DNA of 64,000 nucleotides, taken from positions 8,019,383-8,083,382 of the forward strand of contig NC_135252.1 of the NCBI RefSeq assembly GCF_964204865.1, written 5' to 3'. Each line of letters starts with the position of its first letter. The first letter of the stretch is position 1. The notes beneath the pieces are model-generated. The model was given only the letters and a program-made list of their open reading frames with translations. It was not told the origin of the DNA and made no database searches. Positions 28,026-53,112 of the stretch are shown here, piece after piece. The translations under genes and the position numbers were made by a program. The DNA is from Styela clava (lineage: Eukaryota; Chordata; Ascidiacea; Stolidobranchia; Styelidae).

Positions 28026-29167
28026 ATGCGGACTGAAACAATTTTGGATTGCACATCACGTTTTGCGACGATATTTCTTGTAGTTGCGTGTTTAACTCAA
28101 ACTACCAAAGCTTTGCCATTAAAAGAGTGAGTATATATATTTTTTTACGATTGCAAATTGGACAAAACTAATGTAGTGTAGTATTATATAAGAATTTTTT
28201 TATTGAATGAGTGAAACTAATTTTACTAGAATTTTATTTTACATATGCTGATATCAAGTTTAAAACTTTCTAATTTTAAAACTTGGCCACTTCTACAATA
28301 AAATATGAATTCTTTTTGTTTAGCACTGACAATGATTCTCTTTTACGCATTATCAACTTTTGGAGGAATAGAGAAATCCGAGAAGCTTCAATGTACGATG
28401 TCAAAGCCAACGAACCAGAATCTATTTTCCGAGAAGGTAAATTGATTTTTCTTTCCCAGCGTAAAATAAGATTGTTCAAGATTTTCATGGAATACTAAAT
28501 ACCGCATTCTATGGTAAAAGTCAAATATATTTACTTTCTTGTATATAACTTAATTTTAAAATCTCAAGTATGAAAAGAAGTTAGGTATAGTCAGAAATGT
28601 TGAATTTAACAATCAAAACAATTAAAAAAAGCATTATTTCTAAAATCACTAGCTAAGGAAAGACATATTCATGAAAGTAATACAGAGATTTACATTTTTC
28701 AATAATCGTTTTTAGAAGAGGATGATACACAGTTGGAACACCTTGAGCGTCTTCGGCGATATTCGGACGGAACACATATGAGCCTATTATCTCATTATCA
28801 AGACGCAAAGGCAGCAGGGAACCTGAGGAAAATGTTAAGAGGGTATGTCGAGTTTTCTCTATCTTTCTAATTCATCTAAAGGAATGACAACCTAATCTAC
28901 TTCAAATATCATAAGAATGAGATGGTCGATTTCCAAATAAATTGTGTAAATAAAGCGCATAGTAGTAATATTCTGGAAAGTCACCGTATTCATGGCTTAT
29001 GTATGGCAAATATGTTATTATATCGTTCACTATTATTAAATATACACACACTTTCTCTTTTTAGGTCCTCGCCTAAAACACACGATACTGTTTGCTTGGG
29101 AGATCTGATACCATACGTCGAGTCCCTTAAAGAACTGCAATTTGCATTGGAAAGCTGCGCATACTGA
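28026..29167 (+). CDS. Secretin/glucagon-superfamily-like peptide precursor 1 (Y-S-D-G type)
   Basis: Exons: 28026-28126, 28324-28436, 28716-28842, 29065-29167. All phases join to give 147 residues. A signal peptide (hydrophobic FATIFLVVACL, cleavage near TKA) is followed by an acidic propeptide, then RLRR and a peptide starting YSDGTHMSLLSHYQ, which has the N-terminal spacing of secretin-like hormones. Against secretin as I remember it, residues 2-5, 8, 10, 11 and 22 match. Unusually residue 1 is Tyr and residue 6 is His instead of the near-invariant Phe. The last exon encodes a tail with two cysteines 20 residues apart (VCLGDL ... ALESCAY). No dibasic site separates peptide and tail (MLRGSSPK). 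An extra phase-1 intron splits the propeptide, unlike the two relatives. It is probably secreted and acts on a family B GPCR (inference). Confidence 0.82.
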
Positions 29168-29418
29168 TCTTTCGAAAACAAATGTGATATCCTTATGCAC
29201 CTAAATCTTGCAAAACTTTTCCCCAGTTTTTATTTTCTATATTTGTGTTTTTTGCTCCATTTGCCGGTATGTGTTGCAATATATTTACTGTAAACGTTAA
29301 GTGTGATTCATTGATCATCGCAAATACTGCCTTTTTGCCGACGCAAAAACTCCTTTGTGTTATGTTTCGTATCAGTTAGTATTTATTTATTATTTTTGCT
29401 ATTATTACTACTACGCCA

Positions 29419-29424
29419 AATAAA
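29419..29424 (+). other. Poly(A) signal candidate of peptide gene 1
   Basis: AATAAA about 250 bases after the stop codon of peptide precursor 1, in the context CGCCAAATAAAATTTAG. Confidence 0.5.
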
Positions 29425-29429
29425 ATTTA

Positions 29430-30165
29430 GAAAATGTCCTTGAATGTCATATTCGTTGGAAGAATATTTTCGGGAAGACACACGTCAAATTACTAAAATG
29501 CAATCGCTAAGACAATCACATATAGGGAGTATACCGGGTCACCATAGTGAAAAATGTGGTTATTTTAGTTCATATAGAAAAGTAGTAAAAAGTGACAATA
29601 ACGGGCCTGAAAAATATGGATGATGGATCTGCGATTTTTCATAGTGGCGACGGATAACGTTCCATATCTTTTCGCAGGATTCTTGTAACTATTCGATGTG
29701 GCGTGCTCTGGGAATATAGTTAGTGAGAGTGAATTTGACAATTAATGTTGCCCAGAAACGTTTTGGCATTATATTAGTCATTGATAGTTAAGTGGTCACT
29801 GAGTTAATATATAATATCGTTGTACGTCTTAGTCATGGTGATATCGCAGATCATCAGCTTCGGTTACGTCGATATTCTATTAGTATTATTAATTTAATTC
29901 AGTGTGTAAATATAGACATTTATTCCATTGAGAATATTGTTGTCCTGTTATGATATTGGTCAAGACATCATGCTGATTTATTCTCACCAAACGGCGTTTA
30001 TATGTTGTTCCGTATCAGTACGACCAAATTTCGTGACTGTACTGTGTACACTGAATCTTGTAAATAGGCGGGAACGCACAGTTAGCAATTTGAAAGGATA
30101 TATCTTTAGGGGTATATACTGATCGTCATTTGAATACCGTCTTTCGTATGCCTCCTGTAGGCTAA
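29430..30165. other. Intergenic, nothing recognised
   Basis: AT-rich sequence between peptide gene 1 and the duplicated block, with no family motifs. Confidence 0.4.
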
Positions 30166-31717
30166 GGTATGGACAGCTTGCATCGGTTCGAAACTAGATA
30201 TGCGAACGATCGAGGAGGGTCAGCTGTTCGATACTTGTTACCATCGATAACAAGTGAATATAACGATGCTACTGTTAAGTCCACGTAAGATATTAGTTAC
30301 GGCCCACGGGTACGTGCTATTTCGCAATGAAATATTTATTCGTACACAAAAAACAGTTTTCTAAATTTGCAAAATATATGGACCATGAATTTAACCATTT
30401 ATGAATGCAGAATTTTAAAATCCGACTTACAAGTTTCACGAAAAATGATGTCACGAAACACCCATCGAATTTGGTCACTCAGTTTTGTTACCAGGAATCG
30501 TTTCGAAGCGCACGGGTGGATTAAGGTTAAGTTGATATTTCCGATTATTGCGACGTTGCCATCGCAAATAGGGTCTCGAACTCTAAATTACACAAGTCGT
30601 CATTTATGTATCAAGCTATCTAATATAATTGTATCTTTATCCTGTATAGAGATCTTCTCAGAATATGGTAATATGGTCATGTTCTTCTGTGTCGATACGT
30701 AGAAATTTGCGCGATTGGTTAGGTTAAAACTCATAGAACAGGGTGATCCAAATCCAGGCCCGCGGGCCACATTTGGCCCGACACTTCATTATCTGTGGCC
30801 CGCGTTACCTTTTCGAGAGGGTGACAAAAAAACGCATTTGGTGTTGTTCCGTCATCAAAATACCCAGAAAAATCTTTCGAAATATTGTTACATAACTAAT
30901 GTCACTGAATTGACTAATGTTATGGCTAGCTGAGGCAACTAGCGAAGTTGAATAATGTGCTTGGCTAGTCTAAATTGTTAACTGGCTTTCTATCTTTTTG
31001 GTCGGGAATATATGCTAACAAAATAGGCTTTATAGAAAACTAAAAATCGAATGAGGAATCTATTAGCCTAAGTTGGCTATGCCTGATAAATAAATATTAA
31101 TATTGTGACCGAATATATAATGCCTGCCGGATGGTCTTTTGCAACCAGTCTAAACAGTATTACAAAAAATGCTGCCTATATGTCAAACAATTTAGTAATT
31201 ACCAATTACACTTCTGTATCTAAAATTCTAAAACGGCATTTTCTCTTTATGGCACTTTTTCCGTTTTGAAGAGTTTGAAAGCGCACACTATAGTGTATAC
31301 ATGTAGGATATATATAGTAAGATTTTTGCACGTTTAATTGAGTTTTTTTGGTGGTTCTTCCATGTTTTAGCTTGGTAAAAGACAAATAATGATAATGTGT
31401 TTGAACAATGAAAGTGTTTGTTTTGTATCACAATGTTTGCCTATTCTTGGCACTATTGTGGCCAGCAAAAAATGCAAAAATAATTTTGTGGCCCGCGAGG
31501 CCGACAACATTGGACCACCTGTCATGGAAGGATATTTGGTAGTATAAAATAAATGACCGTAATAAGTGGATTTAACAAATATCACGTGAGTTTGATCTCA
31601 TCCCCACGCGCTCTGGCCGTGGACTCCGGACTTGGGGAGAATCAGCGTGTGGTGCAAGCTCACAGACGTCATAAAAAGATCATTTAGATAAATTGCCATC
31701 AATGGGGTTATCGGCTG
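30166..31717 (+). repeat. Diverged duplication, copy 1 (interrupted by a hAT MITE)
   Basis: The block shares its order of landmarks with 31998-32735: ATATGNGAACGNTCGAGG near the start, then TTCTAAAAT, GTCACGAAAC, a TATGGTCATGTTCTTCTGT-type block, and near the end a GTGG...AAGCTCA motif followed by AGATAAATTGC. Removing the MITE and one target copy leaves about 760 bp, close to the 738 bp of copy 2. Both copies keep a long frame with similar residues (for example FEAHGW and FKARGW), but no start, splice sites or known domain support a gene. Confidence 0.65.
30739..31521. mobile_element. hAT-type MITE, 783 bp, with target-site duplication
   Basis: The left end reads CAGGGTGATCCAA followed by CCCGCGGGCCACA, and the right end in reverse complement reads CAGGTGGTCCAA followed by CTCGCGGGCCACA, a clear long terminal inverted repeat of hAT type. 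Flanks are TCATAGAA (30731-30738) and TCATGGAA (31522-31529), 7 of 8 matching. There is no transposase frame. It sits inside copy 1 of the local duplication and is absent from copy 2, so it inserted after the duplication. Confidence 0.88.
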
Positions 31718-31997
31718 AGTGAATATTGACAACTGGGTCAATGGTGAAAGGTTCATTATGAACATGGCTTCAAATGGATAATATCATTTATAATGAAGAT
31801 GAATGCTAACAATATATTAAATGTCCTAATAAATGTCATCGATATTTTGTGGTAACAGGGGTGTGTTCATACATTATTGGGTAAGTAAATGCAAAACAAA
31901 AATGAATTTGATTCAATATTACGAAATACGAATTAGTGAGAATTCTAATCTATAACATGGAAAAAACTTTGATTTCTTGCACAATGCGGTCAGAAAT

Positions 31998-32735
31998 AGG
32001 GATGGACATACGAAACCGGATATGTGAACGGTCGAGGCGGTTCAGTTGTGCGGCAATTGCTTCTATCAATACTTGGTGAACTTGGTGGGTTCTGTTAAGC
32101 GTGGACGTCCAGGTAAGTTGCCGATTTACTAACAAATGGACTATTCAAAACAAGGAAATCGCCCTCTTTGGTGGGGAATTTGAACTTTTTTCGTGTCATA
32201 TGACAGCGGAATTCTAAAATCGAGTTACACGTCCACCGACGACGAATGGTGTCACGAAACTGCCAGCAAACCCGATCATTCGGTTTTATTGCCAGAAATG
32301 GTTTCAAAGCACGCGGATGGACGCAACGTGAGTTGACATTTTCGATTATTATGACTTTGCCAATACGAATAAAAGATCGAATACTAAACTACATTGCAAC
32401 TATACAACTACAACTCGTCATTAATGTACCAAGCAATCTATCACATTCTTGGATAAAGCCATGTCCATTATATGACAATATGATCATGTTCTTCTGTAGT
32501 ATTATGCGGAAATTTCATCGATTTATCAAAAATAAAGCAGTTGTTGGAGAAATGTTCCACGAGGATTTTTTGGAGCATGAAGTATACTAAAATAAGTCGA
32601 CGTATATAACACATGATTCTGATACCACCCGCGTGCCCAGCTCGTGGCTTGTGGGAGAAGGACGTGTGGAACAAGCTCAACGGCGCCGTGAACAGACGAT
32701 TCAACAGATAAATTGCTGTGAAGTGATGGTGTAAT
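31998..32735 (+). repeat. Diverged duplication, copy 2 (without the MITE)
   Basis: The second copy of the block at 30166-31717, separated by about 280 bp. It keeps TATGATCATG-type and AGATAAATTGC landmarks in the same order. It carries a 114-codon open frame (32246-32590) whose residues resemble the frame in copy 1, which could reflect an ancestral coding origin or just shared ancestry of a noncoding block. Confidence 0.65.
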
Positions 32736-33415
32736 GATTGCGTGAAAGGTAAATGGCCATGATAAACACGAATTGCGTTAAACGAGAATCAAAGGAAGAA
32801 ACGGTTTCTCGGTCAAATGTTAAAAATCACCAAAATATTTACTGTAGGAGTCAATAATTTACCTTCAAACACTTTCTTCCATTTCCAGATGCCATTTGAC
32901 ATTACACTTAGAACCGAAATGTCATTTGGGAACACGTGATTTCTGTAAAAAGATGGATGGAAAACCAAGTGAAGCAATTTATTTTTTCAAATGTTTTCGC
33001 TACTCAAGCACATTATTGGCAGCCGGTATTCGGAAATGTATATCGATAATTTACGAACTATTTCACAACCACAGATTTTGCAACAGTGTGGTTTAGCGCG
33101 CGTATATTGGTTACGCAACGCCCTGTATGAAAATGGAATCGAACTCATTTCACCGGTCAATTGTGGGCTGATTATCGTAGGACTGTTTTGCGCAATATAA
33201 AACAAACAAGCATCAAATTGTACATTTGAATATGAAATTCAAAAACGCGTGATGCTTAAAACAATCGGTTCTATATAACAAATTTAATATCCCATCTTGT
33301 ATAACAAAGATGAAAAGTTACCCATTGTTATGCAAACTACAAAGCGCCCTTTTAACCTTTTTTTCAGATTTGAATCAAATGAGAACAAAAATGGAAAAAA
33401 TATTTGACTCAAGAG

Positions 33416-33828
33416 CAGTGGTTTTCAACCTTTTTCAGTGTCGGAGACAAATTTCAAACCTTAAAGTTATAAGGAGCGCACATAAAAAAAAACGCAAAAT
33501 TAAAATGTATTTTAAAATAACAACATCAACAAAAGAAAATATCTGAACTTTGCACAGTGTAAGGGGTAGCCTGCTTGTGACTACTGGAAACAATGAAATC
33601 AGTTTACCAAAACGTAGGCTAAACATTGGGGGAAAACACCATGACATCGTGATTAAAAGTTGCATTCAAAACGACCTAAAAGCTACGATGACATCAATTC
33701 AACTAATGCACTTCCTTTTATCAAATTCGAGTCATTGATTAATTTTAATTTTCGAAGGATAATGAAAGCCGCAGAAGAAGTAATTATAAGGCGCATGCAG
33801 CTTTAAGAGCCGCGGTTGAGAATTACTG
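33416..33828. mobile_element. hAT-type MITE, 413 bp, with exact 8-bp target-site duplication
   Basis: The left end reads CAGTGGTTTTCAACC and the right end in reverse complement reads CAGTAATTCTCAACC. The flanks are CTCAAGAG on both sides (33408-33415 and 33829-33836), an exact 8-bp duplication. No transposase is present. Its termini differ from the other two MITEs, so it belongs to another hAT family. Confidence 0.88.
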
Positions 33829-33836
33829 CTCAAGAG

Positions 33837-36800
33837 TATATTTGAGTAGGCGAAAAAAGAAACGCTGATTCAATGTTGAGTAAATCGAAAGTATTAATGG
33901 ACACAAGTTTTCAAAAATTTGGAATACGTCAAAGTCGAATCACACACAGCTATATAATAGATAACCACTACATATATCAGGAGATGTGATACTCAAAGTT
34001 GTTTTGTGTCATGTCATGATGATAAGAAGACCCTTCAAGCAAAATGCCGGAAACAGAACGTATATGCTTTTATTAACAAAGCAAAAGTTCATCTAGTCGG
34101 AATATGTAGATTCAAAAATCTAGTACAAGAGTCGAATAGTTCGCATTCATGATCATACCAACCTACGGAATTGGTGTGACGCCCGGCACGCACTAACTTT
34201 GAAATATTGCCTCATCAGACTGGTGACGTGAATAAATTACAACATTTCGAGAGAGAGAGAGGGGTCGACGCGCAATACGACGGCATAATATGTCATAACA
34301 GTCGCTGTAAAGTGACGTGGGCGTTGCTCACCTCCTACCAAATTCCAGCACCTTAAATGGAGGCGGATATCATGGAGGTGTGAGATAGACAAGGCAAGAA
34401 CAATATAAGAAAAAGTTTACTTCATAAGATAAGACACAAAGAAACGTTATTGAAAACGTTTTGACAACCAGGGGGTCACAAAAGTATTGTCAGAAGCAGT
34501 TCCCCAGGAGAATCGTGTCTTGTTTCTATAAAAATCATGAATCCAATGGGGGTGTTATATGAATATATAATGAACAGGTGCTCGAAGTTTGATGTTGAAA
34601 TATTTTCTTCGCGTTGGCAAAAACAAACTTTACAAACTGCGTACGTGAATCTAAAATTAGGTGCTCGCTTTTTATCTTCAACGCCCTTTCTAAATTGCGA
34701 GCGTAATTTGCTATTTACACAATAAATTTCATTCAATGTTTGAATCAGTTCATCAAGTCATCAACATTTCACGATATCATTAGAATGTTTATATCGTAAT
34801 CTTACTCCATGGCATTTTTCCCGCCTCGTCCACAAACTATTGACCAATTGATCCTGTGGGTGTAAGTGACGTGCATGTGTTACACCTGAGATATGATTTG
34901 CAAAAGGACATTTTTGAGATCTAAAACCGATTTTTGAAGCAACAAATCACAAAAAAAAAACATGTTAAATACTTGCTTAACCATTCCGAATATTTGCTAA
35001 TCGGGGATAATATCTTAGACCGCGGGGTAGCGCTAGCCAGAATAAACATCTCAATTCTCAACTGTCACAATAAAAGATCGCGTAAACACGGTTCCGTTAA
35101 AATTGTTGTTTTTGAGATAAAAAGAATTTCAGCCCTCAACTATTGAACCAATCCAACTTGAAAAAATTACCAGTAGTTGAAGGTGGACATCGGTATGATA
35201 TTTTTAAGAAAAATCGCTGATTTAAATAAAAATTGGACTTTTTGCCAATCGATTTCAGCAATCGGTTGCGCAACAGGAGGGCATGTATATAGTTGCACCG
35301 GTATAACATTCGCGTTCATGTATTTGGGTATCGCTTGCTCACTTTTAATAGATCGTATTGGGATATAATGATACTCAACAAATATTCACTATCCATAACA
35401 GTAAAATCGTCAACGGAGTCAATATAGAAAAGGCTGTATACGTAGAACTCATTCTGAGAAGCCATAATAATAAAAAAACTTCAACATTTTAATATCGTAA
35501 ATGACGAGATATCATGTGTTATCAAAAACTATTCTATAATCGCAATGTATTCGAACACTGAATTTCCAAATGGCATTATTTTCATGTGATTCGGATCGTC
35601 ACCGAGCCAATCTAATCCAACTCTACTTGGGAAACAATAATATTTGTATAATAAGTTACGTATGTATTATATTTTGAAGTGTAAAATAAACAAATATAAT
35701 TGGGTCCTTGGGTAAATAATTTTTGGAAATTTTGCGAAAACCTTGCAAAGTTAAACATTGCATAAACTGTTACAAAATGAGTGAATTTCACTCTGATTTT
35801 ACCATTATTGTATCGTGTCATTTGAAGACAAAATGGAATTGCTATTAATTAATCTTGTAAAGAGAATATAAGAACAAGCCCTGGAAACAAATATCGATTA
35901 CTTTACGAAACAATTTGTTAGATGGACGGTATGGTTGCAACTACGAATAAAGACTAGAAAATTTACTGATATGAGACAACTCATTTAATATGACAGTATT
36001 TCGGTAAGGGTGGTCACGTGGGCGGTTCTGGGAACTAGCACCGTTATACTGCTAAAATGAGGGGGCGTAAATGTTTTCATGTGACCTATTTCAAAAACAC
36101 GCTGCTTCGGATGAGCAAAATTGTTGTTTGAAACAATATTCCAGATATGCACGTGATAAACAAACTAATATCACTAATGGAAAAGCGATTTTTATTTGAT
36201 TTCATAAAATTTGTAGAGAATATTAAATTCATATCTTAAAAGCAACTGATGCAAAACCTTAACTTTCGATCATAACTAAGGTTTTAAGTATTGGGTAAAA
36301 ACGTGCCAGTCTAAAGGACGATCGCCAATTACTGACACGTTTGTGCGTCTTGACAGACCATCAACGTGTAAATAATGACTGCAATATATACTATGATAGT
36401 GATCGTGTGATTTCTAAAAATAATGGGAGATAAATCACAAAATGAGAGCCCACGCCTTCACATATATTAAAAATCCTCAACAGGATAAGATAATGATCTT
36501 TGTAATATCATTTGTGATTGACGTGAATCTAAATTTAATAAAAAAAAGATTCAAACGTTCGATTCGTTCCGTGGCTCATTTTGACAAAATACCACCAAAA
36601 CCTTCTGAATTTTTTCCATTGATAAATATCGCATAGACAGGTCAAATGGTATCATGTCGTTCTTTTGAAAAAAAAAGGTTGAAACAGTTTTGCTATAAGC
36701 CGACATGTCGCAGAAGTTTCCAGCAATGAAGTCGTCACACTACGAGTCAGTAAAAAAGTTATAACAATATTGATATTTGGCGAGAGAAACACTTAATGGG

Positions 36801-38634
36801 TTTTGCCTAGGTAAGCTATTGGTAGTTGGTTCCGCTGTTAAACATAAAGCCATAATTGGTCGACTTATAGCACGCCTGCCACACGCCTTTAAGTTTAGTA
36901 AAACATTGGTAGTCTATCTGTAATTATTACCGATGTTTATATTATGCCTACTCCATTCATTTCACATAAAGTATCTCGCAACACAAGGTTTTCCAGGACG
37001 GGCAATGACAGTAAATTGATCTAACCGGTTCTGGCCTTGAATTGTCGGAGATTGAGATTGTTCAACTTTCGACAACTCTTATCTATAGATCACTAGCGGA
37101 AAATTCTAAACAATTACGAGAGATTAAAATTATATCCAGGATATGAGGTCACATATCAGTCATAATTTTAGGGGTCTTAGTGATTTATTTTCTGAACCAG
37201 AATCATATATCCAAATAGGGAAAGATTGTAAGATTTTATACTAACAAAGTTGACTCATCCAGATATGATATGATGCCCTGCGTGAAACAAATCATCAGAA
37301 CGGAAGGAAAACTCTGAATAAGGCACTTAAATTGAATAAACATTCGAAATGAATGTTGTTGAAACCCATTACAGGCTATAATCGATGATTCACATTAACT
37401 GGTTCCACTTCCGACACGATATAATGACAATAGACTAATGAGCCCGCGTAATTTGCCAAATTTCATCCTCCTTATTTAAGGAAATAAATATCGATATATC
37501 AAAGCTGATTTTTTCCGATTCGACAGTTAAACTTCGATGTAGTTACAAAATATACTTAAATGTGTATATCGACAAACTTCACAGTTCTTCAACCAGTGTT
37601 GGCGATGAAGCTAGACAAAAAAAAAAACGCAATGTTGTGGGCCGCACAAACACTTTAAGAAATGCGTTCTATCTGATGTATAACAACTTTTCTCTATACG
37701 AGACTATATAAACAAGCATGGATGCGTATATGGTGTCGGCTACAATCATTCGTAAGACCGACATGGATGGAATATGTTTTCGTTTGTTAAATTGAAGCTA
37801 TCTATACATGGTGTATGGAGAAAAGTTAATTATGAATCGAAAACTTTACGATGCAAAGCATACTAGTTATGGATGCCGACTTTCAGAGCATTTCCATTAA
37901 TTTTTAAATACGGCTTTATATAACCGTTAATTTCAACATAATACGTCAAACTAGTGCTAAATTTATCTGCTAATTACTATTGATATTCATTCAAAAATAG
38001 ATGTCGATATTAGTACAAACGGATGGGTGTCGTAGACTGGAAGGGGCCATATGTTTGATCAGCACATGTAAACAGATAACAAAGCCTTTTAATATCAAGG
38101 TATTTATTATGCTATGAACTAGTTATGAATGGAGCGTGCTTTCAGTTCGCCAATATTAACGCTCAACGACACGTGGTATGTTGCAATCGCGCTTATTGCG
38201 TCACTACGTATTAACGTTTACTACAAAATGCAATGACAACAATAGAAAACGGTTACGGGAACTGCTTTGTACCTTGTGGTAGTCCGCTATGACGGAAGAT
38301 AATTCGGAAATATTTTGCAATGTGGGATATTTCCCAACAATGTCCTCGGGTGTCGCCATTATCAAACAGAAGTAAACCAACCAGTCGCATGAAAGTGTCA
38401 ATCATAAAGCCATGGTATATAGAAATAAATCAATTAATAATATTCATCGGTTTGGAATCTCTTTTATCTACGACCGTTTGAATATTTCAAACTGGGGTGG
38501 TCCACGCTTTATTCTTTGTTGAACATCTGGCTCAATCATTTTATAACGGTAAATTGAAAAGGAAGAATTAAGAGTATGCAAACGAAAGATGTGCCAAGAT
38601 TTCGCAACTTTTGGATTTTGCGATTAGTCACTGA
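33837..38634. other. Intergenic, no gene recognised
   Basis: The sequence is AT-rich with only short open frames. A GC-richer block at 34140-34400 (GAGAGAGAGAG and neighbouring CACCTCCTACC) may be a repeat but I cannot name it. A minus-strand frame near 38270-38370 is listed separately. Confidence 0.4.
38204..38365 (-). CDS. Possible short minus-strand ORF or first exon, unknown
   Basis: On the minus strand an ATG near 38362 in fair context opens MATPEDIVGKYPTLQNISEL, and after YHK the bases gtacaa form a weak donor. If read through, the frame continues to a stop at 38204 with a hydrophobic end. I recognise no family and found no partner exon. It lies just upstream of the likely promoter of peptide gene 2 on the opposite strand. 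Confidence 0.2.
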   Translation of the reverse strand: MIMATPEDIVGKYPTLQNISELSSVIADYHKVQSSSRNRFLLLSLHFVVNVNT

Positions 38635-39690: not shown

Positions 39691-40789
39691 ATGCGAGTTA
39701 TCGAAGTCTTGACAATGACAATTGGATGCGTCTTACTGTTAAGGATGAGCGAATCTGAAGCATCGCCTTTAAAAAGGTGAGCATCGGTCCTACAATATTT
39801 CTATTTTTGTAAAGATATATTTTCAGTTCAACCAAACTCGCCCTACCCAATAGTACACGGAGCTTTAGCGATTACCGAGAGATTAGTGATTAGTGTACAG
39901 GCCAAATTTTGATTGTATCGTTGGTACCAGATTTCGGCATATGAGCCCTGGTCCGATGATAACTAAGATTGTGATAACAACTTACACAGTGTTTTGTAAT
40001 TTGGGTTGGCTTACTCGAAGCGCCTCATAAGAATAACATATTTTATTTATAAACAAATCGGATTGCGCATAATCAGATATAAGCAGTATTGAAATGAGTT
40101 GGTCACAAAACTTTTCAATTACCATTTTGTCAAAATGCCAAGTGAAAAAAAGTGAAATCTGTATGAAGAATTGCGGATGAAGGTTCGTCCATGGGCGTGT
40201 TGGAGGTGTGTTGCTACCACTTTATGTCACAAACTGGGTTCCAAAGTCCGTAATTTGAGTAACACGAAGTGTTCTATTTTTATTCCGTAGTAGAATATTA
40301 TGTACACAACCCCGTGTAATCCCCCATTGTTTTTAGAGGGCACGTTGCCGGACACGACGCCAAAAAACCATCACACATGGTGAGAGAACAGGCGATATTG
40401 AAAGCCCTTCATCACCTTGTTCGCCAAGAATCGAACCCCACCGTGAGACATGAAATATCACACTTCCTCGCAAAGATGAGAAAACTCCGATCTCGAAGAC
40501 ATGTAGATGGTTTGTTCAGCGCAATTTCGGGAAAAGCTTACGATGAAGAATATACAAGAGTTTTCATCCGATCCTTGTAAGCCTGAATTTATGTGTATAT
40601 TTTCACTTAAAATGGTCTAGAACAAAATACCTATTAAAAGCACCAACACGAGTGATATATTCGACTAAATAATGTTATTTTAACAGGAAACAAAGATACT
40701 TTGAGCGACAGAGAGAATGCTACAATGCAATTTTGGTATTTGCCGATCAACCAGAATTGTTCAAAGCAGCTCTTGAACAATGCGGTTGA
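39691..40789 (+). CDS. Secretin/glucagon-superfamily-like peptide precursor 2 (H-V-D-G type)
   Basis: Exons: 39691-39776, 40337-40576, 40687-40789. They join in phase 2 and phase 2 to give 142 residues. The signal peptide (IEVLTMTIGCVLLL, cleavage near SEA) ends exon 1 with PLKR, matching PLKE of precursor 1. A basic, His-rich propeptide leads to RSRR and a peptide starting HVDGLFSAISGKAYDEEY, with Phe at position 6 as the family expects. Further along, F22, I23 and L26 follow the glucagon/GLP pattern (VFIRSL). The final 103-base exon, the same length as in precursor 1, has two cysteines 20 residues apart (RECYNA ... ALEQCG). Between them there is no dibasic site, only KQR. The open frame extends upstream of the ATG chosen here (in-frame from 39574), but the signal peptide fixes this start. 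Confidence 0.85.
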
Positions 40790-40838: not shown

Positions 40839-40844
40839 AATAAA
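40839..40844 (+). other. Poly(A) signal candidate of peptide gene 2
   Basis: AATAAA only 50 bases after the stop codon of peptide precursor 2. Confidence 0.55.
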
Positions 40845-43800
40845 AGGAGAAACCTTATTGAGACGTGCTCTGAATGAACTGGAGGTGTAAGCGGTGTCAT
40901 TTCGCTGATGAAAAGGTGACTTTCGTTCGTCGACATCGAGTTACAATAAACGAAGCTGCACGAGACTATATACCCCAGAAGACATGTCTTAAATTGACAC
41001 GGCGACATTTCATCGTTACAATCATTAATCATTACTTTTGCTTCAATATTTTTATATTTCACACAATACTATTTGCCGTAATGTATATTTTGCCTAGTTC
41101 TCGCCTATTCAAAAATGTATAATTTATTGCTATTCATTTCGATATATATGTCTACTATAATTTACTGTTATTATTATTCTTTTACAACAAATGCAATTTT
41201 TAACTTTAAATATTTGATCTATAAATCCTTACATCAAGATTTGGTTAATATTACTTAATTAAAGCAGATTTTACGGCAGGTTGTCTTATCGCTTCCGACC
41301 GCCTTCCGAAGTATAAATAAATATACACGCAAGGTGCAATAAGACGATCCAATAATGAAATAAAATATCCGCAGACACGTTGGAAGGTTAATGAGCGGAA
41401 AATAAATAAGCGTTTACATCTTTCTGATGTCAAATACTTTTTGTACCACAAATTCCGAATGTGATCTTAGTCGAAATAACGATTTTTGTGGGTGAAATTC
41501 TAGGAATGCAGAATGCAGAATTTAGAAGTAGACAACACAACTTGATTATATCTTGTTTTGGATAGCCATTTGATAAATAAATAAACAAAAGTGTAACAAA
41601 ATAAAACGTGAAAGTCGGATTTAATAATCCATTAGGGTTTTTTAACATAAATATTTTGATTTGATTGATATCAGTTAGCTACAAAGAACTACATCAAACA
41701 CTATGAATAGCGAGACAACAACAAAGGTTCTGAATACAACATACGGGTGGTCAAAGGGGGAGAAAAGCAATTTCAAGCGCTTTAATTTGTGAGATGCCAA
41801 AAATAGTCAATTGAGTAACAAAAGACTTTAACACTTGCTTTATATGAGAAATGCCAAAGTAAAACACGTTTTCTTACAAAGGCTTTCTTTGGCAAGTGTT
41901 CACGCGCGATTATTTGATGTGATGAGGTAAGCCTTCCAAAAGCCGTAAAATGCGTGTGAGTTGACCTGATTTTAGTTCTCAAATAAAGATTCATTACTCT
42001 ATTGGTCTATAATATATAATGCCGATCAAAAATAGCTTTTTCCATTTCACATGAAAATGATCACTAAATAACATGCTAATTATTTCACATCAATAAATCA
42101 TTTAAACTGTTCAGAAAGAATGTTTTACTATTAACGAACATTGTATCCATACTTGTTCAATGCATAATGATCGCTTTTCCACTCGGTTATGTAAGTTTGA
42201 GGAATAGGTCAAAAACGTGCAACCCCAAAAAGTCCTGCGAGCCTCTTTTACGAGTAGGCCTTTCCTCTAGTCTAGTTCAAACACGAGAGGAGCAGAGCCA
42301 ATTAAAACTTTTTGAGTTAATCTAAATAGACACGCACAACGGTAGTATTGGAATTTCATGAATTGTGCACTGAAACTCAATAAATATTGTAGACTAGTCA
42401 TTTTATATATTTGATACAGTCAGTACAGGAAATTTGTACGAAAACATCATTGCTGCGGATTCAACATGCGATTTAACAAGATCATCAAATTTGTGAATTA
42501 AATTAATAATATTATGCAAAATCTTTTGGACAACGACCAGACAAAATAATAAATAAACTGTTAATTACTTGTTTCAAACAAATCATGTTTAAAAATTATT
42601 TCTTGATCCACATTGCTTGGTTTAATGTGGAGGTGCTTTAATATAAGAACCGGTGAACATATGAGAGCATTTTGCAAAAAAAAACATACATCATGCGAGA
42701 AGAAATTTACGCGAATTTACTTTTGCAAAATTGTATTGTTGTAAAAAGAACATTCGCGCGAATATTGCTGAAATGGTATTTGCACGGTTCTCACCCTGAA
42801 CACACTTCTGTAGTGACGTACATTTTTTAAAGATTATGGATTTGTGAGAATGGACTTTTGTTCATTCTCGCCGAACTATATTCGCACACGAAATCTTTCT
42901 TGAAAAAGTGGCGACACACCAAATTCATCCTAATTTTGCAAATTAGTTGATTTATATACGGTGCATAGAGGGTTTATTAAAACCATCTGACATACGGCTC
43001 CAGAATTTGTACATACCCAATAACGTATAGGAAACACATATATACCCAATTGATTTTAATAAGTTTATTCTGCATACGTAGTCATTCGGAGAGAAACGGA
43101 CTTTGTTTTGATGAAGATGGTTGCTTCCAAAGGTCACTTGGTATAGCCAAAATAAATACGGTAAATGCAATGCATTGTTGCAAATACGGTTGTTGACAAA
43201 ACGAGCACTGTTTTCCATTCGTCGAAAACAGTAGAATACAATATCTGGAGGCGAATAATATATGAAATTACGGGCTGAACTACCCCCGCGTAGTTGTTTT
43301 GCGGACACGAAGAACTGCGCAATTCGAATATAATACATTATGCAAATTTAAGATTGGCATCCTCCAAGTGATAAAATGTTGATGATAAAACTAGTCAATG
43401 GTTGGAAAAAATCAGCTGCAAAACTAATGGACTTGAAGTAAATTGACAAATGTAATACACGCGTGTTAATAGTAGCATATTTGTGTAATACCGACCATTT
43501 TCTAAAGTTGGGATCGTGGTCGCTATGTTTTAATTGACTGTAAGGCATACGATTTCAAGGCAAGTATGTTAATATTAAACTACCAAGATGACGTGTCATA
43601 AAAAAAATTTACAATGTTAACGCAAAGTGATCACAAATTTAATGTAAAATTTCAGAACGTTGCTGCCATGTTCTACGGCAACGATCGGGACACACTTGCA
43701 GTTGATTTTATCCATTTTTGAGAAGATTTGCTCAAAGCAAGGTCACGATAACTTGCTCAGAATTAGAGAGAATGATTATAAGCGAAGCTATGGTGACCAC

Positions 43801-46800
43801 TGAGATGCCAAGAGAATTATAGCGTGGGAATGCTCGTTGGTAAATACCATTGACGTGGGGCTTGTAAATACACTTACATTCGAATTCACATTTTGCAAAC
43901 AGTATTTATTCAGCGAAATTACTAGATACTAAATATTTATGAGGTCTGCTACCAGTCCCATAATAATTCCTCTTTGAAATATGTACTAATTCGAATCTAA
44001 TTATAGGAGCGTTATGCAGTTTGGAATAGTGTCAAAAAGTAGATATTGTCGGCAGGTGGAATAGTGTCCGCAATTGGATGGTTGGCCCAAAGGTAATGTT
44101 ACTTAAGTTCACCAGATCATGAGAATCATACCATAGTCTGCATGTGGGAAATTCATGCCTCTTTCGCGACGCTGTGCCACAAGTAAAAAGGTGGCAGCCA
44201 TTTATATTTCCTAATAAGAAAAGGCGATCGGGTAATCGGCCATTTAGTTTTTTGTCTTTATTTAATTAAAGGAAAAAATATTCAACCAACAATACTACTA
44301 TCGCAACTTACACATTTTTCTTATTGTTTGCTCTAATAATCAACTCGTGTTTTCACTACACATGGAGTCGGTTTTATGGCAAGTACATATTTCATTTCAA
44401 TCTCTGATGATAAGTCACAATTTCTGAATGCCGTCAACGACATATGAATAGGGCTACTACAAAAATTATCGAGAACTTCAGCATTATTGCATTGTTAGTA
44501 CAGAATTAAATGCTGTTACCCTTTAGAGAACAACTTACACTTACGTGCATAATTCAAAATGGCGTCAAGACGTAAATCGTCGGGTATCTATAGCAAATTG
44601 ACGTAAATATTCACCTGTAGGTCGGAGCACCGTGTTTGGTGCACTTAAATTCCTAAGTTTGACGATCGCAGTATAAATTTTCGACGACAGGTAGTGAATA
44701 TTTGGGAAAGTTATGCGAGCTAATATCATTACTTGAACAAATTAGAGCACAGAATGTGAGTGTACCTGGACACCAACATTTTTATTTTATTTCAGAACCT
44801 CAATATAGCCCACTGAGAATTTCTAATATGTATAACGAAAGTTGCTGTTGCCGCTTATCATCTTTCCTAAAAGTTTCTTGCCACCAGTGAATCTGTAATT
44901 CGCTAGATACTATGGGTCAGTAGATGTAATCTGTAGTATAAGTGGGAATAACGAGTTGTACATACTTTCCGGTAGAGTGATGTACGACAGGCGTTGTCGA
45001 TTAAGACCAATAAAATACCTCGAATTTGCCCGCCCAGAACCATCCCACGTTTTAATTTATCTTCATTTAATTCAAAGGCGCCTCTTAGCGACAAGTGCTC
45101 AACAAATTGGAAATCCAAAATATGCCAATAGCACATCACCAGTGACCTCCAGTGATGAATTTAAATGAGTGTTGTTTGAAACTTTAATTTGCTTTGATGG
45201 AGTTTGTTGGAGTCGGATGCGAAGTCGAATTCTCCCCAAAGTTGGAGATGGAAAGAAAATTTGGAACTAAGATGATGAAGAATATACGCAGAAACTAAAA
45301 CCGGCGGAACGTCGAAGCAAAGAAAATATTAGTCAGGGGTTGCTCGGGTTCGGGTCCAATTTTCAAAACTTGTAGTAGAGGCCTGGAACAGAAAGATGTC
45401 GAGGGTCGCATAGATCTGTCAGAAATGTTTCCACCATTATTGGATGCGAAGGGATCATATTGCTAAATTTTTGTTGATGAAGACGATGAATTTAATGTTG
45501 TCGTGGTCGCCATGACAAAGGAAATTTTTGGATCTTACTACTGAAAATTTTTAAAAACAAATGTTTCGATAATTGGCGGCAAAAATATATTTCATATGTT
45601 TAATCTATAAAGCTGCTGTCACATTCATGATTTTTAATTTTTCTTTGGATATCGTAGTGCCTGTTTTGTTATCACTGACTTGCGCCAACAGGCTAACTTT
45701 TCGCTGATCGACATAACAAGCTGGTACTCAAAAACAACCCAGTAATGGTAAAGATACCTTTGTGTCCAATAACGCGCAAAATAGCAATCAAGTGATAAAC
45801 ATGTTGAACCTAAAATAGCTTTCAAATTTCAAATTCTAATACATATTTATACATTGTATAAATTATCATGATATAACATTCTGACTCATTATCAAATTAT
45901 TAATAACTATATTTCTACATAAATTCCCCGCATTGATATAAAACTACTTGAAACGAAGAGTATACTGAAGAATTCCGCATGACCTTCGCAATAATAGTTA
46001 TAGTCGACAATTTCAATATTGAGTCGGTACTCGAATATGTCCTATTTATTCATTACCATTAATTCCTATCATTTCTAAATAGCCCTTGAAGCTACCGAAG
46101 TATTTTACCAATGACGTCATTTGACCACTGATGATGGTGTAAAGATCTCAATGTACAATGGTAATTATCATGGAGTAGCCATTTATCATATCGTTTCTGT
46201 AAACATAAATTTTATAATCCTGTTTAATTAAACTCAAGTGCAAACGCGGTCAAAACAATACCAACGCCATACTTTACTTGATGTTTCATATCCTAGATGA
46301 TTTATTTTATAGCAACAGTTATAAACAATCAGAAAACAAAATACATATATCAGCACAATTGTGTACATTTTGTGTAACCTGCGCAATGTCGTCGCATACT
46401 TCAAACAAAGACAAGACTCGTGACAACGCACATTCTCACAGTTCATCATTTGCGGGCAGTTCTGTAATTACTGAATATAGCATAGAAATACTCAGTGGGG
46501 TGATGCTCAAGATGTGAACTTCACTTCATGACGGTGCACTCGCTATTGGCAAAGCGTAAAGTTTTAAATATTTCTCAAAATATTTTGATTAATAATGTGT
46601 ACAACCGAGTGAGAGCACGTTATGAAATTCAATGTTCAGAAAAAACTCACGATATTCAGGATGGATATACATACGACATCACATACACATTTGTATCCAT
46701 GAATATTAGAGAATAACTTGAGAAAAGTATTTACAGAAATAGCTTTTACACATATATCTTTAACTAATAGCCAATACATTATAGACGTTAATATATTTAA

Positions 46801-49030
46801 AAACATTAATGGTCGTCATAAAAAATTTATTTATACTTGAGTTTGGGTACATGTAATGGCGTCAATGGTGATACTATTATTTTCTATTCTTTGGCTTATT
46901 CCTATTTCTTCAATATTGTCATTGATAATAAGAAAAAATTCGTTCGTCGTAGTTTTCAAAATGCAATCAATGTGGTTGTAAGCATTGGATTGCGTCACTT
47001 CATATTGTAACTAGTTACAGCTTTTCTAGGTTCGGCAGAAATGGAGCGTGTTCATAGACAAGCCCCGAAGAAATAATAATCATATTCACAAGTGTATGAG
47101 TTCACATTTTTTGTATATGATTCAACAATTCAAACGGAGTTTTTAATAAATATTGTTGTCATTTTTACTGGCCACAAAATTCAGGTGCGGTGCTAAAAAG
47201 GTGTGGACAAAATCACCACAGAAATCAACATGATGTGTGTTTTTCTAAGTCTTTACCAAGAATGAAGATAATTAAAAAGCGAAACCTGATTAAAATAAAG
47301 ACCATTGAATATTTTTGAATATCCTTCTACAAATCACACAGTGATAATCATTTACGCTTCCTTTCTAAATTGAGAAAATGAATTTCGCTCTGACCTATCT
47401 GATCTTTTTGTGATGAAAAAAGACGAAAGTATTACACTGAAGATCTTCCGAAACGACTGGATGAAAAAAAAAATTGGTCAAAATGCCCGAAAAGCTGTAA
47501 CAGCCAGCCTCCAAATGACAGATTCAGAATTCGGTACTTAAGACATGGATTTTCATAAATCAGAAAACACTGAGAAAATATCAAGGTCATTGTTCTTTCA
47601 TTAAACCTAACATTTGTACGACAAAGTGAAGAAAAATTAGTATCTCAAAGCTTTCAAAACTATTCATTTTTTGCAGTGTTCGTTGTGGTATGTTTAAAAT
47701 AACATTTGTTTCGCTATTTTGAAGTGAGTATATGCAAATTACCCACTCTGATTTTTTATTATTGGATATGTTTTAGTTATAGTCATTCGCAATTAAGATT
47801 TTCAGAGGCGTAATGTTCTAACACAAATATTATACATTTTCGATAGGTAGAGCGGCACTCCTCCAAAGCATACACCCAAAATAAAGAATTAAAATAACTT
47901 TTATTGAAAGAGTCCGCTGAATGCAAACCATAAAACACTTCAAAATTTTCACGGTGGATTTATGGAATCCGGTACCTGCGAAAATGTTAAGTACGTTCGA
48001 CAACACAAACATTTTACCAACCAAGGCGGTGGTTTTACGTAAGATAGTGCATTCACAAGAGAATAGCGTTATGGCGACTATGCTGTTCTCATTTCCATTG
48101 AGGGTGATAAGGATCAGATAAAGTTAGGTTCCACATGACGGTTGGCGGATGTCGTGAAATGACCTCATGATCTCAGGGTATATTTTGATCTACTAATTGC
48201 GATGAAAAACCTTTTAAATATGGGTGAGTACTAAAACAGCGTTAGTATAAATTAAACCGATAAGATAAAAATCTAAGCTGATAATAGGTAACGATTTCGT
48301 ATTTACTTTCCTTTCCATACCATGCTCAGCGACTACAAATATCACATCGAAAAGTTTAAATAGTTTTTATAGTGGTCGAATATCATTAGAATATGTCATA
48401 AAAAATTCCGCTCAGCCTGAAAAAAATTACTTTTAACATTATGGAAGAAAAGTTAAAAAAAAGATATACCACCAATTCAAATAACACCAATTTAAAAATA
48501 ATATATTGACGTAGTCGGTCTGTCTTTAGTTGGCAGTGTTTCATGATGATCAATTCTGAATGGAGCTTTCGATATCGACAGACGGACTTCGAACATCGAT
48601 TATAGAAATAATTTGAAGACCTACAAAGGTATAATTCAATTTCACAAACATTAAAACCTCTTCTTTAAAAAAACATTCTCATTTTTCAAAAGGGTTATAA
48701 ATTACGGGTATAAAGCGCAATTAGCGTTTTGGGTTGAATTTAAACTTCAGTGGACTTTGATTTCTCATTTGAACGCACTACACTACTTGTATAATCACCG
48801 GGTGAGAGGTCGTGATTCGTTATAAAATTAAGTATGTTTTTAAGCCAAACCCGACCGCGCTCTTACTCCATAGTGACACTTTGTGTCCCAGCACTAATTA
48901 ATTAATAACTCGCTGATTATACGACATAATTCATCTAAAATCAATAGGCATCTGGTACGACATATGATGAATGCACATGCAAAATCTGGAGCAGATTCAA
49001 TCTCGCTTTCGTGAGATATCGTGTGCATCT

Positions 49031-49060
49031 AACAGACAGACAAACAAACAGACAGACAAA
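49031..49060 (+). repeat. CAGA/CAAA simple repeat, possible retroelement tail
   Basis: Tandem CAGA and CAAA units (ACAGACAGACAAACAAAC) follow a GAGATATCGTGTGCATCT motif. Such a short conserved motif followed by CAGA units is a common 3' end of repeated elements in invertebrate genomes; the family cannot be named here. Confidence 0.35.
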
Positions 49061-49795
49061 TACCTATCAACATACTTACCGATTAAAATCGATAAGTAAC
49101 AACTAGCAAGATATGTTTCCAACCGTGCATGATTTGTAATGGAATTTTCACTGCTATACAAATAAATTATTGGCATGTTAGAAATATAATTTATTAATGT
49201 CGAGAAAACTCAAATATCTCATTGATTTGAAAGTAAAAATAAATTAAATTGCGGTATTTGTATATTTATGTATTTGAGTGAAATAAATGGTTTACTTTTT
49301 GGAATATGCTAGAAGACAATTGTTTCAAAAAGTTAAAAATTACTTTCCCCGACTGAGTAAATGTATTCGCATTGCCCGTGCGAGTAAGAAACTAGAGCTA
49401 CAAATAAATCCAAGAGATTGCGGAAAATTATGTTAATGTTACTTGAGTATACTTGAAAAATGATTTACGAAAATATATGTTACTGCGATATCTAAGATAA
49501 CATGTGAAAATCAGTACTGAAACCTGTAGAAGTGAAACTGTGCCAGGCGACGTTAAATGAATTACGGTAAGATGACGCCGTTCGTCCCCTCTCGTACGTG
49601 AACCAAAATATTTGGAGAGATTGTTAAAACATATTATTCCCTTATTCGTCAGTGACATGAAGAACATACCGCAACTGCCAACTCATCAATTGACTAATTC
49701 AGTTATTTATTTATCTGCTCTTAACATCGGAAGCAATCGATTTGCTCTCATTTCGCACTACTTAGTAACCTGTAAATATTCTCGTGGTTCATTGT

Positions 49796-50328
49796 TTACA
49801 TTAAAATAGCGTCAAGGATTTCACAATCGCGTATGACGTGTAACACTGCGAGTTTTGCGTCCATATTCGTCCACACAGAAAAATATTTGACAGAAATTGT
49901 TTTTAAGGCCGAATACCACGCCTCACTGGAAGTGATTTTCTCTCGCATACTCAAGGTTATGGTCGTGGAATTATTATACTCGCCAGTAAAAATATCTAAA
50001 AATATTCTCATTCCTCTATAGTTGGTATAGTTGGTTGTTGACGCAAAAAACCGCGCAAGGGGAATGTAACATATAGTGGTAGCAATGCCTGCGATAATCC
50101 ACAAAAAGCCATGAGAATTGTTGAAGTCACCGACACATTTGACCCGAATCTTTTCCTTTTTTTCGGAATTCGGATTTTTTGGAAAAACACTAGTCATGAT
50201 GATACATTTACTACTATATTTGTAATCAAAATAATTCCAACCCTTATGTAAATTCGCAACAGATGAAAGTTGTGCTTGTTTTACTCCGTCGAGGATATCG
50301 ATGTGGCCCAACAGACCAGATACCCCAT
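49796..50328 (-). CDS. Long minus-strand ORF, unknown, possible membrane-protein exon
   Basis: This is the longest open frame in the window (about 177 codons from the acceptor-like aataattag near 50328). It contains one hydrophobic helix, FLWIIAGIATTICYIPLARF, and downstream SMREKITSSEAWYSALK. It lacks an ATG at its start, so it would need an upstream exon, or an internal start at ATG in CIIMTSVFPKN. I recognise no domain. A real exon, a pseudogene or a chance frame are all possible. Confidence 0.3.
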
Positions 50329-51956
50329 CTAATTATTAATCTTGACGAAGTTAATTTTTTATTAAGTAAATATTAAGTATATATAACCTGCCTAAATGTA
50401 AAATAAATAGAAGCCAATTTCAAGCACATTCATATGTAAATATAGACGCCTTATGATGATGCTGAATTACTGTCTACACCAGAGGACACATCTGTGCTTA
50501 TCGTTGTATGTTAATTCTTTCAATGAAATTTTTGAATGAAAATTCAAGGAATGGGCAGTGTATGCAAGAAAATAATGCTTGAGTCGCGCATTTTACCAAG
50601 AACGCGAAATTTATTGGTATAAGTCTTATTTTTGTGTAAAAGTGTTTGTTAATTCATAACTGATTACTTTGACAAAATACCGAATCGGTGATGACATATG
50701 ATGACATGTCGAGTTTTGTAAACTTGTTGATCAAAACATGAAGCCAAGTAAAATCAAATTCTACAAGCGAGAATCTGCATCATATGCCGCATAATTGCTA
50801 TCGACGCCTCGGCAATGCGCAAAAATTTGAAAGCTTACCAAAAAGAAGAAAAAGGTAATCCACGTGATGTAAGCGCAAATAGTGGTTGCATCGAACAAAA
50901 CACAAAAAAAGCGTTGACTCGATTTTTAATCAGATCAATCATCGACATCTGCTGTTACTTTATATGCTATTCTACGGTAACAGGATTACTGTTTCATATG
51001 TTTTGTTTCCAGCTATCTCAACCTAATTTAAGCTACATTTTAGGCGTAAAGTCAATTCGGTATCAATTTTACTTTGAAATTCACATGTGTATATACACAA
51101 AAAGAGACATACAGGTAAAAACCCATATACGCAACCCGGAAATTCGGTAGTTTATATACTAATTTAGCATCAACACATGTAAGTGCACAAAAACATGCTT
51201 ATCAATTTAATCTAGCACGTTCTACGATGTAAGATCTTTATCTTGCGATATTTAATTCCATCATTTCCAAAATGGTCAACATGTCTGTTGACATCTGAAA
51301 GTTTACTTGCTTATCTTGATGAGCTTGCATTATTGGGGAACCTATTTGGTCCTTTTTAATTAAAAAATATTCCACAGAACGAGGGTATGAATGTGCGTTT
51401 GTCATCATTTGACTCATTTGTTTAAGTGCCCACGCTCTTCAAATTCACACGAAATATTGGGCATATATATATTTCTCTACCAGCGAGACATATTGCGAAA
51501 TTGTTTGGCCTAGATAACATGTCAACCGAATCGCAAGCAATTTTACCAACATTGTCACTTATTAATATCTAGAATTTAACTGCTTTACGCGTCGTTCGAG
51601 ATTATTTTTAGCGATGACAATAAGAGCGTACTCATTCCGCTCCGCAGAAAAAAATGTCGTTACCGAAAATTAATATTTAAACGACCGATTCGATGAATGC
51701 GACATCATAATCTCCAAGTGCAAGATAATAGCCAGGAATCAACATTTGATTCCTTGTCAAGGCCACACAAGTTTATATCAATCTCAAGAAAAAATATCAA
51801 GTCGGAAACGAAATATCTTGAGACTTCGGTGAGTTTGTTTATTTCTGTTCGACGATTAGCGATGAAACAATGTTCGCCGAGCTAAAAAAAAAAAGAAGTT
51901 TCAATTCTTCATTTATTTATAAGCTTGTCGGGAAAAAAAGTTATATGTTGGGCTGA

Positions 51957-51964
51957 TATAAAAC
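51957..51964 (+). promoter_or_regulatory. TATA-like box, likely promoter of peptide gene 3
   Basis: TATAAAAC about 30 bases upstream of a short leader that ends at TGCCGCTGTG and a gtaact donor (52011). The leader would splice to the acceptor tttgttttacag at 52253, 42 bases before the start codon. The ten bases CTGATATAAA also occur at the candidate promoter of peptide gene 2. Confidence 0.4.
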
Positions 51965-52294
51965 TTAGAAAGCAACATCTGTTAAGCCTGTTATCTATTT
52001 TGCCGCTGTGGTAACTCGCCTAAATTTTGAAATGCGAAATTATAATTTTAATCACGGAAGTATAAAGTGAATGTTGTAGAAAGTCCTTTAGTTAAATTTA
52101 ATTAGTCTGAATACAAAGAAGTTTGAATGGTAGAATAAAAGTATTTTATTAAAAAAAAATTAAATGCGACATATATGATATGTACGCGAATACAATATAT
52201 ATTATTATTACCTCAATAAATTAATACCCCATGTTTGCATGTTTGTTTTACAGAATCTAAATCCTTTCTACAAAACACGTAAACTACAAACAAG

Positions 52295-53112
52295 ATGAAA
52301 ACAATCATTTTTTGCGTATTCGTTATCTTCGTCGTTTTTGTGGAGACTGTTTACACACGCTCTATCGCGAAAAGGTAAGATTACTTTTAATCAAAAATCA
52401 TGAACCAAATAGCACACAATTATAACTTATTTACGAACGACATTAATAATTATATGACAAATAATATAAAAAATATCCTGTTTTTCTCAGATCTCATAAA
52501 ACGCCCCACATCGATGGAATGAATGAGAAACACGAAGAAAGACCCATGTTCCTGTCTCGTCGTCGTCGCCATGCCGATGGCACAATGACCGATAGACTCG
52601 GAAAACTTTTAGGAAGACAGGGTGCTAAAGATGTCGTTAATTTAGTGAAGGGGTGAGTTTGAGCTTATACATACATACGTACATACACAAATAATACATA
52701 TTGTAACAAGCAAAACGATACAAGTATTCCAGTACTTTGCAGTGCACATTGATAAACGAGAACACGAGTAAATTGGCTACACGAGTAAATTGGTAAACTT
52801 TCACGCTCATGCCAGGAAGATTAATGTACAAACCGCCACGAGCCAGATATTATTGCGCGTTAGTTATTTTTTGTATTGGCGATGGATGAATTGGAAATTT
52901 CGAGAGTTATCTTTTCTCTATTACAGCAAAACAATCAAAAAAAACACAACTAATATAAGTAAATAATAATTTTTTTTATTAACAGAAAAGATGCTTCTTC
53001 AAATTCACCTCTAACAAAGTGTATTTCACGACGTTTGCGTAACAGAAAGAAGGTCACAAACAGATTTTACAAAAGAGTGATGATGTCCTGTGTGCGACAT
53101 GTATTCAAGTGA
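52295..53112 (+). CDS. Secretin/glucagon-superfamily-like peptide precursor 3 (H-A-D-G type)
   Basis: Exons: 52295-52374, 52491-52652, 52986-53112. They join in phase 2 and phase 2 to give 122 residues. A strongly hydrophobic signal peptide (IIFCVFVIFVVFV, cleavage near VYT) ends with SIAKR. A short propeptide is followed by four arginines and a peptide starting HADGTMTDRLGKLLGRQGAK. From memory, mammalian PHI starts HADG and also has T7, K12-G15 and A19-K20, so 11 of 27 positions match without gaps. Residue 6 is Met instead of Phe. The final exon is basic and has two cysteines 22 residues apart (TKCISRR ... MMSCVRH). A possible GK amidation site (LVKGKD) lies between them, with no dibasic pair. 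The family call is strong; ligand activity is inferred. Confidence 0.87.

Follow-up and report, generated by a model that had tools for sequence, protein, structure and literature searches.

Three tandem prohormone genes in Styela clava with similarity to the glucagon/secretin superfamily and a cysteine-pair tail

A stretch of 64,000 nucleotides from the ascidian Styela clava (assembly GCF_964204865.1, contig NC_135252.1, positions 8,019,383 to 8,083,382 of the forward strand; hereafter the window) carries three prohormone genes in tandem, here called gene 1, gene 2 and gene 3, which are very probably paralogous members of the glucagon/secretin superfamily and stand, on present evidence, closest to its glucagon-like branch. 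Each precursor begins with a hydrophobic N-terminus, judged by eye to be a putative signal peptide, and continues through a propeptide to a basic site (RLRR, RSRR and RRRR in genes 1, 2 and 3) that directly precedes a peptide starting YSDG, HVDG or HADG. The last exon of each gene adds a tail with a pair of cysteines, a feature that is new here and was not mentioned in the first-pass annotation of this DNA. By analogy with the family, the most likely role of the peptides is to act on tunicate class B receptors of the glucagon/GLP type, with the Cys pair as an unusual extension.

Gene structures and public gene models

The first-pass annotation had placed three such genes on the + strand. Re-splicing by script at the junctions it proposed gave GT..AG ends for all seven introns and open frames from ATG to stop in all three genes, with products of 147, 142 and 122 amino acids for genes 1, 2 and 3, respectively. 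The exons are as follows.

Gene 1 (Styela clava LOC120342681), exon 1: 28026..28126, + strand; start, signal peptide, end at ALPLK/D, phase-2 intron.
Gene 1, exon 2: 28324..28436, + strand; propeptide, followed by a phase-1 intron.
Gene 1, exon 3: 28716..28842, + strand; end of propeptide, RLRR site, core YSDGTHMSLLSHYQDAKAAGNLRKMLR(G) from 28760, intron in codon 28.
Gene 1, exon 4: 29065..29167, + strand; C-terminal tail with Cys38-x20-Cys59 (hormone numbering), stop.
Gene 2 (Styela clava LOC120342661), exon 1: 39691..39776, + strand; start, signal peptide, end at ASPLK/R, phase 2.
Gene 2, exon 2: 40337..40576, + strand; propeptide, RSRR site, core HVDGLFSAISGKAYDEEYTRVFIRS(L) from 40500, intron in codon 26.
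Gene 2, exon 3: 40687..40789, + strand; C-terminal tail with Cys37-x20-Cys58, stop.
Gene 3 (Styela clava LOC120342487), exon 1: 52295..52374, + strand; start, signal peptide, end at SIAK/R, phase 2.
Gene 3, exon 2: 52491..52652, + strand; propeptide, RRRR site, core HADGTMTDRLGKLLGRQGAKDVVNLVK(G) from 52570, codon-28 intron; sub-threshold Pfam Hormone_2 match (E=0.04).
Gene 3, exon 3: 52986..53112, + strand; basic C-terminal tail with Cys40-x22-Cys63, stop.

Shared phase-2 introns, after the signal peptide and at the hormone, had been claimed for the three genes, and re-splicing confirmed both. The second of them interrupts hormone codon 28, 26 and 28 in genes 1, 2 and 3, and the hormone core of each gene lies within a single exon. 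At the level of exons this agrees with the vertebrate scheme of one hormone per exon (PMC2880984). Gene 1 has one additional intron, of phase 1, inside the propeptide, which is absent from the layout of genes 2 and 3. The origin by local duplication that had been proposed is supported by the shared exon layout, by the position of intron 1 in the codon after PLK, PLK and IAK, and by the last exon with a Cys pair in each gene, although the hormones of any two paralogs share just 4-6 of 27 residues.

Searches of a set of 5.8 billion proteins identified all three products in public data. Gene 1 corresponds to Styela clava LOC120342681 (P0001) with no difference over 147 residues, P0001 having 32 extra N-terminal residues; gene 2 corresponds to LOC120342661 (P0002) with the single difference K75R, and gene 3 to LOC120342487 (P0003) with none. 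The contigs given for P0001 and P0003 have an identical length of 25,587,678 bases. All three public proteins are annotated as 'uncharacterized protein', and their species name bears out the tunicate host that had been surmised. The splicing as given is thus probably right, judging by its agreement with the public gene models. At residue 75 of gene 2 (exon 40337-40576) the window has K and P0002 has R, perhaps from another haplotype or assembly. The public model of gene 1 has an added 5' exon at 26377 with an upstream in-frame ATG; this start is probably not right, because it puts 32 residues ahead of the likely signal peptide, and the ATG at 28026 gives a signal peptide that appears better placed by eye.

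Similarity to the glucagon/secretin family

The homology to the secretin/glucagon family that the first-pass annotation had proposed is supported by a profile with its reversed control, by tests that ignore the N-terminal motif and by published consensus residues, the last being marginal for gene 2. The main profile was built from the three Styela 28-mers and from P0004, the ortholog of gene 3, without any vertebrate sequence, and was run against 177,635 PDB sequences (E<=10). It returned 50 rows, the first 31 of which are glucagon/secretin-family peptides or engineered agonists; the code-named agonists among these 31 we take to be family agonists. Native glucagon (1gcn) was matched at E=3.7e-4, 1bh0 (labelled glucagon) at 2e-4, GLP-2 at 0.0048, GLP-1 at 0.006 and secretin at 0.029, and the first non-family row appeared at E=0.17. 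In one control profile the four N-terminal motifs were kept and the other 24 columns were reversed, and only two rows were returned, neither of them from the family. When only genes 1 and 2 went into the profile, 42 rows came back, and family peptides made up 24 of the 25 that had a stretch passing on its own.

All three peptides combine an H/Y-x-[D/E/Q]-[G/A] N-terminus with a collinear 27-residue core. A six-frame scan of the window for [HYF]x[DE]G preceded by a basic site turned up these three places and no others. The stricter pattern [RK]x[RK][RK][HY]xDG with 20 open codons, which was picked after the genes had been seen, was observed three times, whereas 60 dinucleotide shuffles averaged 0.017 occurrences and never had more than one. 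A chance motif was rejected on these shuffles together with the reversed control profile.

Motif-blind scoring used residues 5-27 only, against nine human hormones, with 15 non-family peptides for comparison. The scores against shuffles reached z = 2.7, 3.2 and 5.1 for genes 1, 2 and 3 and 4.2 for P0004, and none of the 15 non-family peptides reached p<0.01. With the motif ignored, the register directly after the cleavage site was the best in each precursor (first of 121, 116 and 96 registers in genes 1, 2 and 3), and the lead was wide in gene 3 (18 vs -2). When the window's 27-mers that stay open after a dibasic pair, 368 in all, were ranked on residues 1-27, gene 3 came first and gene 1 second. 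Convergence of the motif alone was rejected, since the similarity persists with residues 1-4 left out. Beyond residue 4, the published glucagon-like consensus is matched at five positions by gene 1 (p=0.00025), five by gene 3 (p=0.0004), four by P0004 (p=0.007) and, marginally, three by gene 2 (p=0.056). Gene 3 and P0004 also match the published consensus of the PH/GHRH group (p=0.0007 and 0.0001).

Several results weigh against this assignment. The significant match to Pfam Hormone_2 (PF00123) that had been set as a refutation test was not obtained: the 28/29-mer cores of gene 3 and P0004 matched this family (E 0.04-0.05) at 14.2-14.4 and 14.1 bits, under a curated cut-off of 21.2, although it was the sole Pfam family that they matched, which speaks in favour. 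Genes 1 and 2 had no Hormone_2 match in any form, nor had the full precursors, and the 69-residue forms of gene 3 and P0004 matched no Pfam family. Single peptides did little in PDB: gene 3 found GLP-2 best (E=0.17) and then GLP-1 (0.86), gene 2 only exendin-3 (E=0.98) and gene 1 no row, and the sole row of P0004 was a superoxide dismutase (E=1.1). In the profile of genes 1 and 2, designed repeat or fusion proteins fill the first eight of the 42 rows, and 17 rows had no stretch passing alone. Glucagon, GLP-1 and exendin are also heavily represented in PDB, which tilts the rows towards that branch, and protein-database searches with these genes returned nothing beyond the Styela proteins and P0004. 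In the motif-blind tests, two non-family peptides reached p<0.05 (motilin 0.039, TIP39 0.046), the lead of the best register was narrow in gene 1 (2.6 vs 0.6) and gene 2 (8 vs 5), and on residues 5-27 the same 368 27-mers placed gene 3 first and gene 1 only fourth, gene 2 falling outside that scan through its interrupting intron. An NCBIfam search gave noise only, and MAFFT alignments of whole precursors (A1, A2) misplaced the hormones, A2 serving as search seed only.

The Cys-pair tail and the released peptide

In each gene the last coding exon starts where the hormone ends, and the stretch that it encodes has two cysteines, at positions 38 and 59 (gene 1), 37 and 58 (gene 2) and 40 and 63 (gene 3) from hormone residue 1. 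The last exons of genes 1 and 2 are equal in coding length (103 nucleotides), and the 20 residues between their cysteines are alike at p=0.011 against shuffles. Conservation of the tail is measurable for gene 3 only, through its ortholog P0004 (120 amino acids, encoded on a contig of 1073 bases, 57% identity overall), genes 1 and 2 being without one. The two proteins are identical at 13/47 residues in the propeptide, 4/4 in the cleavage site, 22/28 in the hormone and 30/41 in the tail, or 52/69 after RRRR; 30/41 in the tail against 13/47 in the propeptide argues that the gene 3 tail is under constraint and conserved almost like the hormone. A PDB search with the gene 3 tail returned no rows. 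An AlphaFold model of P0004, made with one relative, has tail helices at residues 87-96 and 104-119 with block means of 66-77, to be read as hints only, and the low overall confidence (predicted local distance difference test 58 for P0004 and 51 for gene 2 alone) speaks against leaning on it.

Known mature hormones of the secretin/glucagon family stop where the helix does or shortly beyond it and carry no disulfide; all three Styela tails have a Cys pair. We know of no vertebrate member of the family with a helix-plus-disulfide-tail architecture.

For processing, disulfide, receptor and function we infer a course modelled on the known hormones. The precursor would be secreted via its signal peptide and cut after RxRR by an enzyme of the furin/prohormone-convertase type. 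The freed N-terminal H/Y-x-D-G would then insert into a class B1 receptor core, as that of glucagon or GLP-1 does, while helical residues ~7-27 would bind the receptor extracellular domain, and cyclic AMP signalling would be expected downstream, as in the family. The released product would probably have 59-69 residues, a glucagon-like helix followed by the Cys-pair tail, because none of the three genes has a dibasic pair from hormone residue 28 to the first tail cysteine; gene 1 has one RK pair, inside the hormone core. The tail may lend the peptide stability or provide further contacts with the receptor.

A strong contender, plausible but not quite probable, keeps the family and has the Cys tail removed, for instance at V-K-G-K in gene 3 and K-Q-R in gene 2, which would leave an active peptide of 26-28 residues, with an amidated end in gene 3, and a tail that serves sorting or folding; it concerns processing and overlaps with the explanation preferred here. 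V/I-K-G-K stands straight after the core in gene 3 and P0004 and could yield an amidated K27, and GLP-1 offers a parallel in being amidated. Gene 2 has K-Q-R and R-Q-R. Four dibasic pairs, two of them overlapping (RR, RKK, KR), lie between the cysteines of the gene 3 tail, so that it could be cut there, which tells against an intact product. However, gene 1 has just a single K from residue 28 to the first cysteine, the lack of a dibasic pair there holds for all three genes, and the identity of the gene 3 tail between species, set against that of the propeptide, does not resemble that of a discarded spacer.

It is unlikely that the genes encode secreted peptides of another kind, such as antimicrobial or structural peptides of an ascidian-specific family with a convergent H/Y-x-D-G start. 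The post-cleavage product of gene 3 is indeed very basic (net charge +14) and has two cysteines, Styela makes antimicrobial peptides, the paralogous hormones are highly divergent, with 4-6 of 27 residues identical pairwise, and a relative outside Styela was found in the protein-database searches for gene 3 alone. Genes 1 and 2, however, have a net charge of -1, the similarity to the glucagon family runs in register across residues 5-27 and is gone when the tail of the profile is reversed, and the human antimicrobial peptide LL-37 has no such match (p=0.42). A PTH-type or other class B1 ligand outside the glucagon/secretin branch is very improbable and was rejected on the scoring of residues 5-27: other class B1 ligands are expected in tunicates, Ciona having two PTHR-like, two CRHR-like and one CALCR/CALCRL-like receptor (PMC2396169), but human PTH, PTHrP, CRF and urocortin stayed at chance level against the glucagon/secretin set and TIP39 matched weakly (p=0.046), whereas the three Styela peptides match, and no PTH or CRF entry occurs among the 50 rows of the main profile.

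Related systems, neighbourhood and significance

The Styela genes share with the vertebrate glucagon-like subfamily (GCG, GLP1, GLP2, GIP, GCRP) H/Y1 and G4 in all three peptides, T5 in genes 1 and 3, and the in-register core, and native glucagon and the GLPs are among the top profile rows. Published consensus residues of this subfamily are matched at 8/15 positions by gene 3, 6/15 by gene 1 and 5/15 by gene 2; F22 is present in gene 2 only, L26 in genes 1 and 2, and W25 in none. Unlike that subfamily, Styela has one hormone per gene, a Cys-pair tail in the last exon and three local tandem genes. Gene 3 and P0004 also resemble the PACAP-like branch of PHI/PHM and GHRH in A2, K12, L14, G15 and A19, with S18 in P0004 as well, and PHM gave P0004 its top ungapped identity among the nine human hormones (12/27). 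At position 6, however, they have M or L in place of F, and genes 1 and 2 have at most two of the seven residues; a receptor survey also lists no receptors of that branch in Ciona (PMC2396169).

For Ciona, that survey lists three GLPR/GCGR-like receptors but no member of the GHRHR/PACAP/SCTR/VIPR group, and a review from 2020 counts two GCGR-like receptors (PMC7251081). The review gives no superfamily ligand outside vertebrates apart from a cephalochordate gene, and no ligand was found in its tunicate transcriptomes, which come from two Ciona species, Oikopleura and Salpa (Styela not included). A 2010 survey likewise gives no secretin-family ligand in two Ciona genomes or in tunicate expressed sequence tags (PMC2880984). 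The words 'secretin', 'PACAP' and 'glucagon' are absent from the main text of a 2022 review of ascidian peptides (PMC8936170) and of a 2025 Ciona neuropeptide atlas (PMC12441681). Among the matches listed in searches of published open-licence papers, no title or abstract start described these genes or any other authentic glucagon-type gene of a tunicate.

The amphioxus PACAP/GCG precursor is likewise a ligand of an invertebrate chordate with low similarity to vertebrate members, and activates its own receptor; it is encoded by one four-exon gene with two splice forms and three peptides (PMC9049855, PMC7251081). Compared by description only, the peptides have multiplied inside one gene in amphioxus, whereas Styela has whole-gene tandem copies. 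Tunicate 'PACAP' complementary DNAs are on record from Chelyosoma and Halocynthia; those of Chelyosoma reach 96 and 85% identity with human PACAP, and doubt was cast on their authenticity by later searches (PMC7251081, PMC2880984). The Styela peptides differ from these in being divergent and located in genome sequence.

Two further genes flank the cluster in the window.

Intermediate-filament gene: 9486-14323, + strand; Pfam Filament in 3/3 scanned stretches (E 5e-12, 8e-11, 2e-18), upstream of the cluster.
Activin-receptor-type-1-like (TGF-beta type I) kinase gene: 62322-63704, - strand; 3/4 stretches match kinase models, downstream of the cluster, probably extending past the window end.

The best PDB match of the kinase was activin receptor type-1 (E=3e-35), followed by TGF-beta receptor type-1 (1e-32). 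An acidic open stretch of 67 residues at 15140-15340 (+) has coding-like composition and no Pfam match. Between genes 1 and 2, a 9-base seed applied to 29500-34500 detected two 155-nucleotide copies on the + strand (30438-30592 and 32239-32393), 71% identical and 1.8 kb apart; both lie in open frames and may stem from an ancient dispersed repeat. A 12-base seed found no direct DNA repeats of at least 60 nucleotides in 26300-54000; it missed this 71% repeat, and therefore old DNA traces of duplication may have escaped that scan.

Human ACVR1, ACVR1B/ACVRL1 and keratin genes presumably lie near GCG, GIP and GCRP on HOX-bearing chromosomes, and synteny between the Styela cluster and the GCG/GIP/GCRP paralogon is treated here as no more than a lead. 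GCRP is located near HOXC13, and GCRP, GCG and GIP are ohnologs (PMC3679108). Tentatively, and short of being probable, the tandem-duplicated glucagon-branch hormones of tunicates could be two-part ligands, in which the helix stays permanently joined to a disulfide-closed helical tail, and could supply the ligands so far lacking for the GLP/glucagon-type receptors of tunicates, in a cluster that may keep part of the HOX-linked segment ancestral to GCG, GIP and GCRP. If the peptides are true ligands, the origin of glucagon/GLP signalling would become directly testable in the closest relatives of vertebrates, with three loci, three peptides and few receptors, and the Cys-pair tail could show how a class B1 ligand is stabilised in nature.

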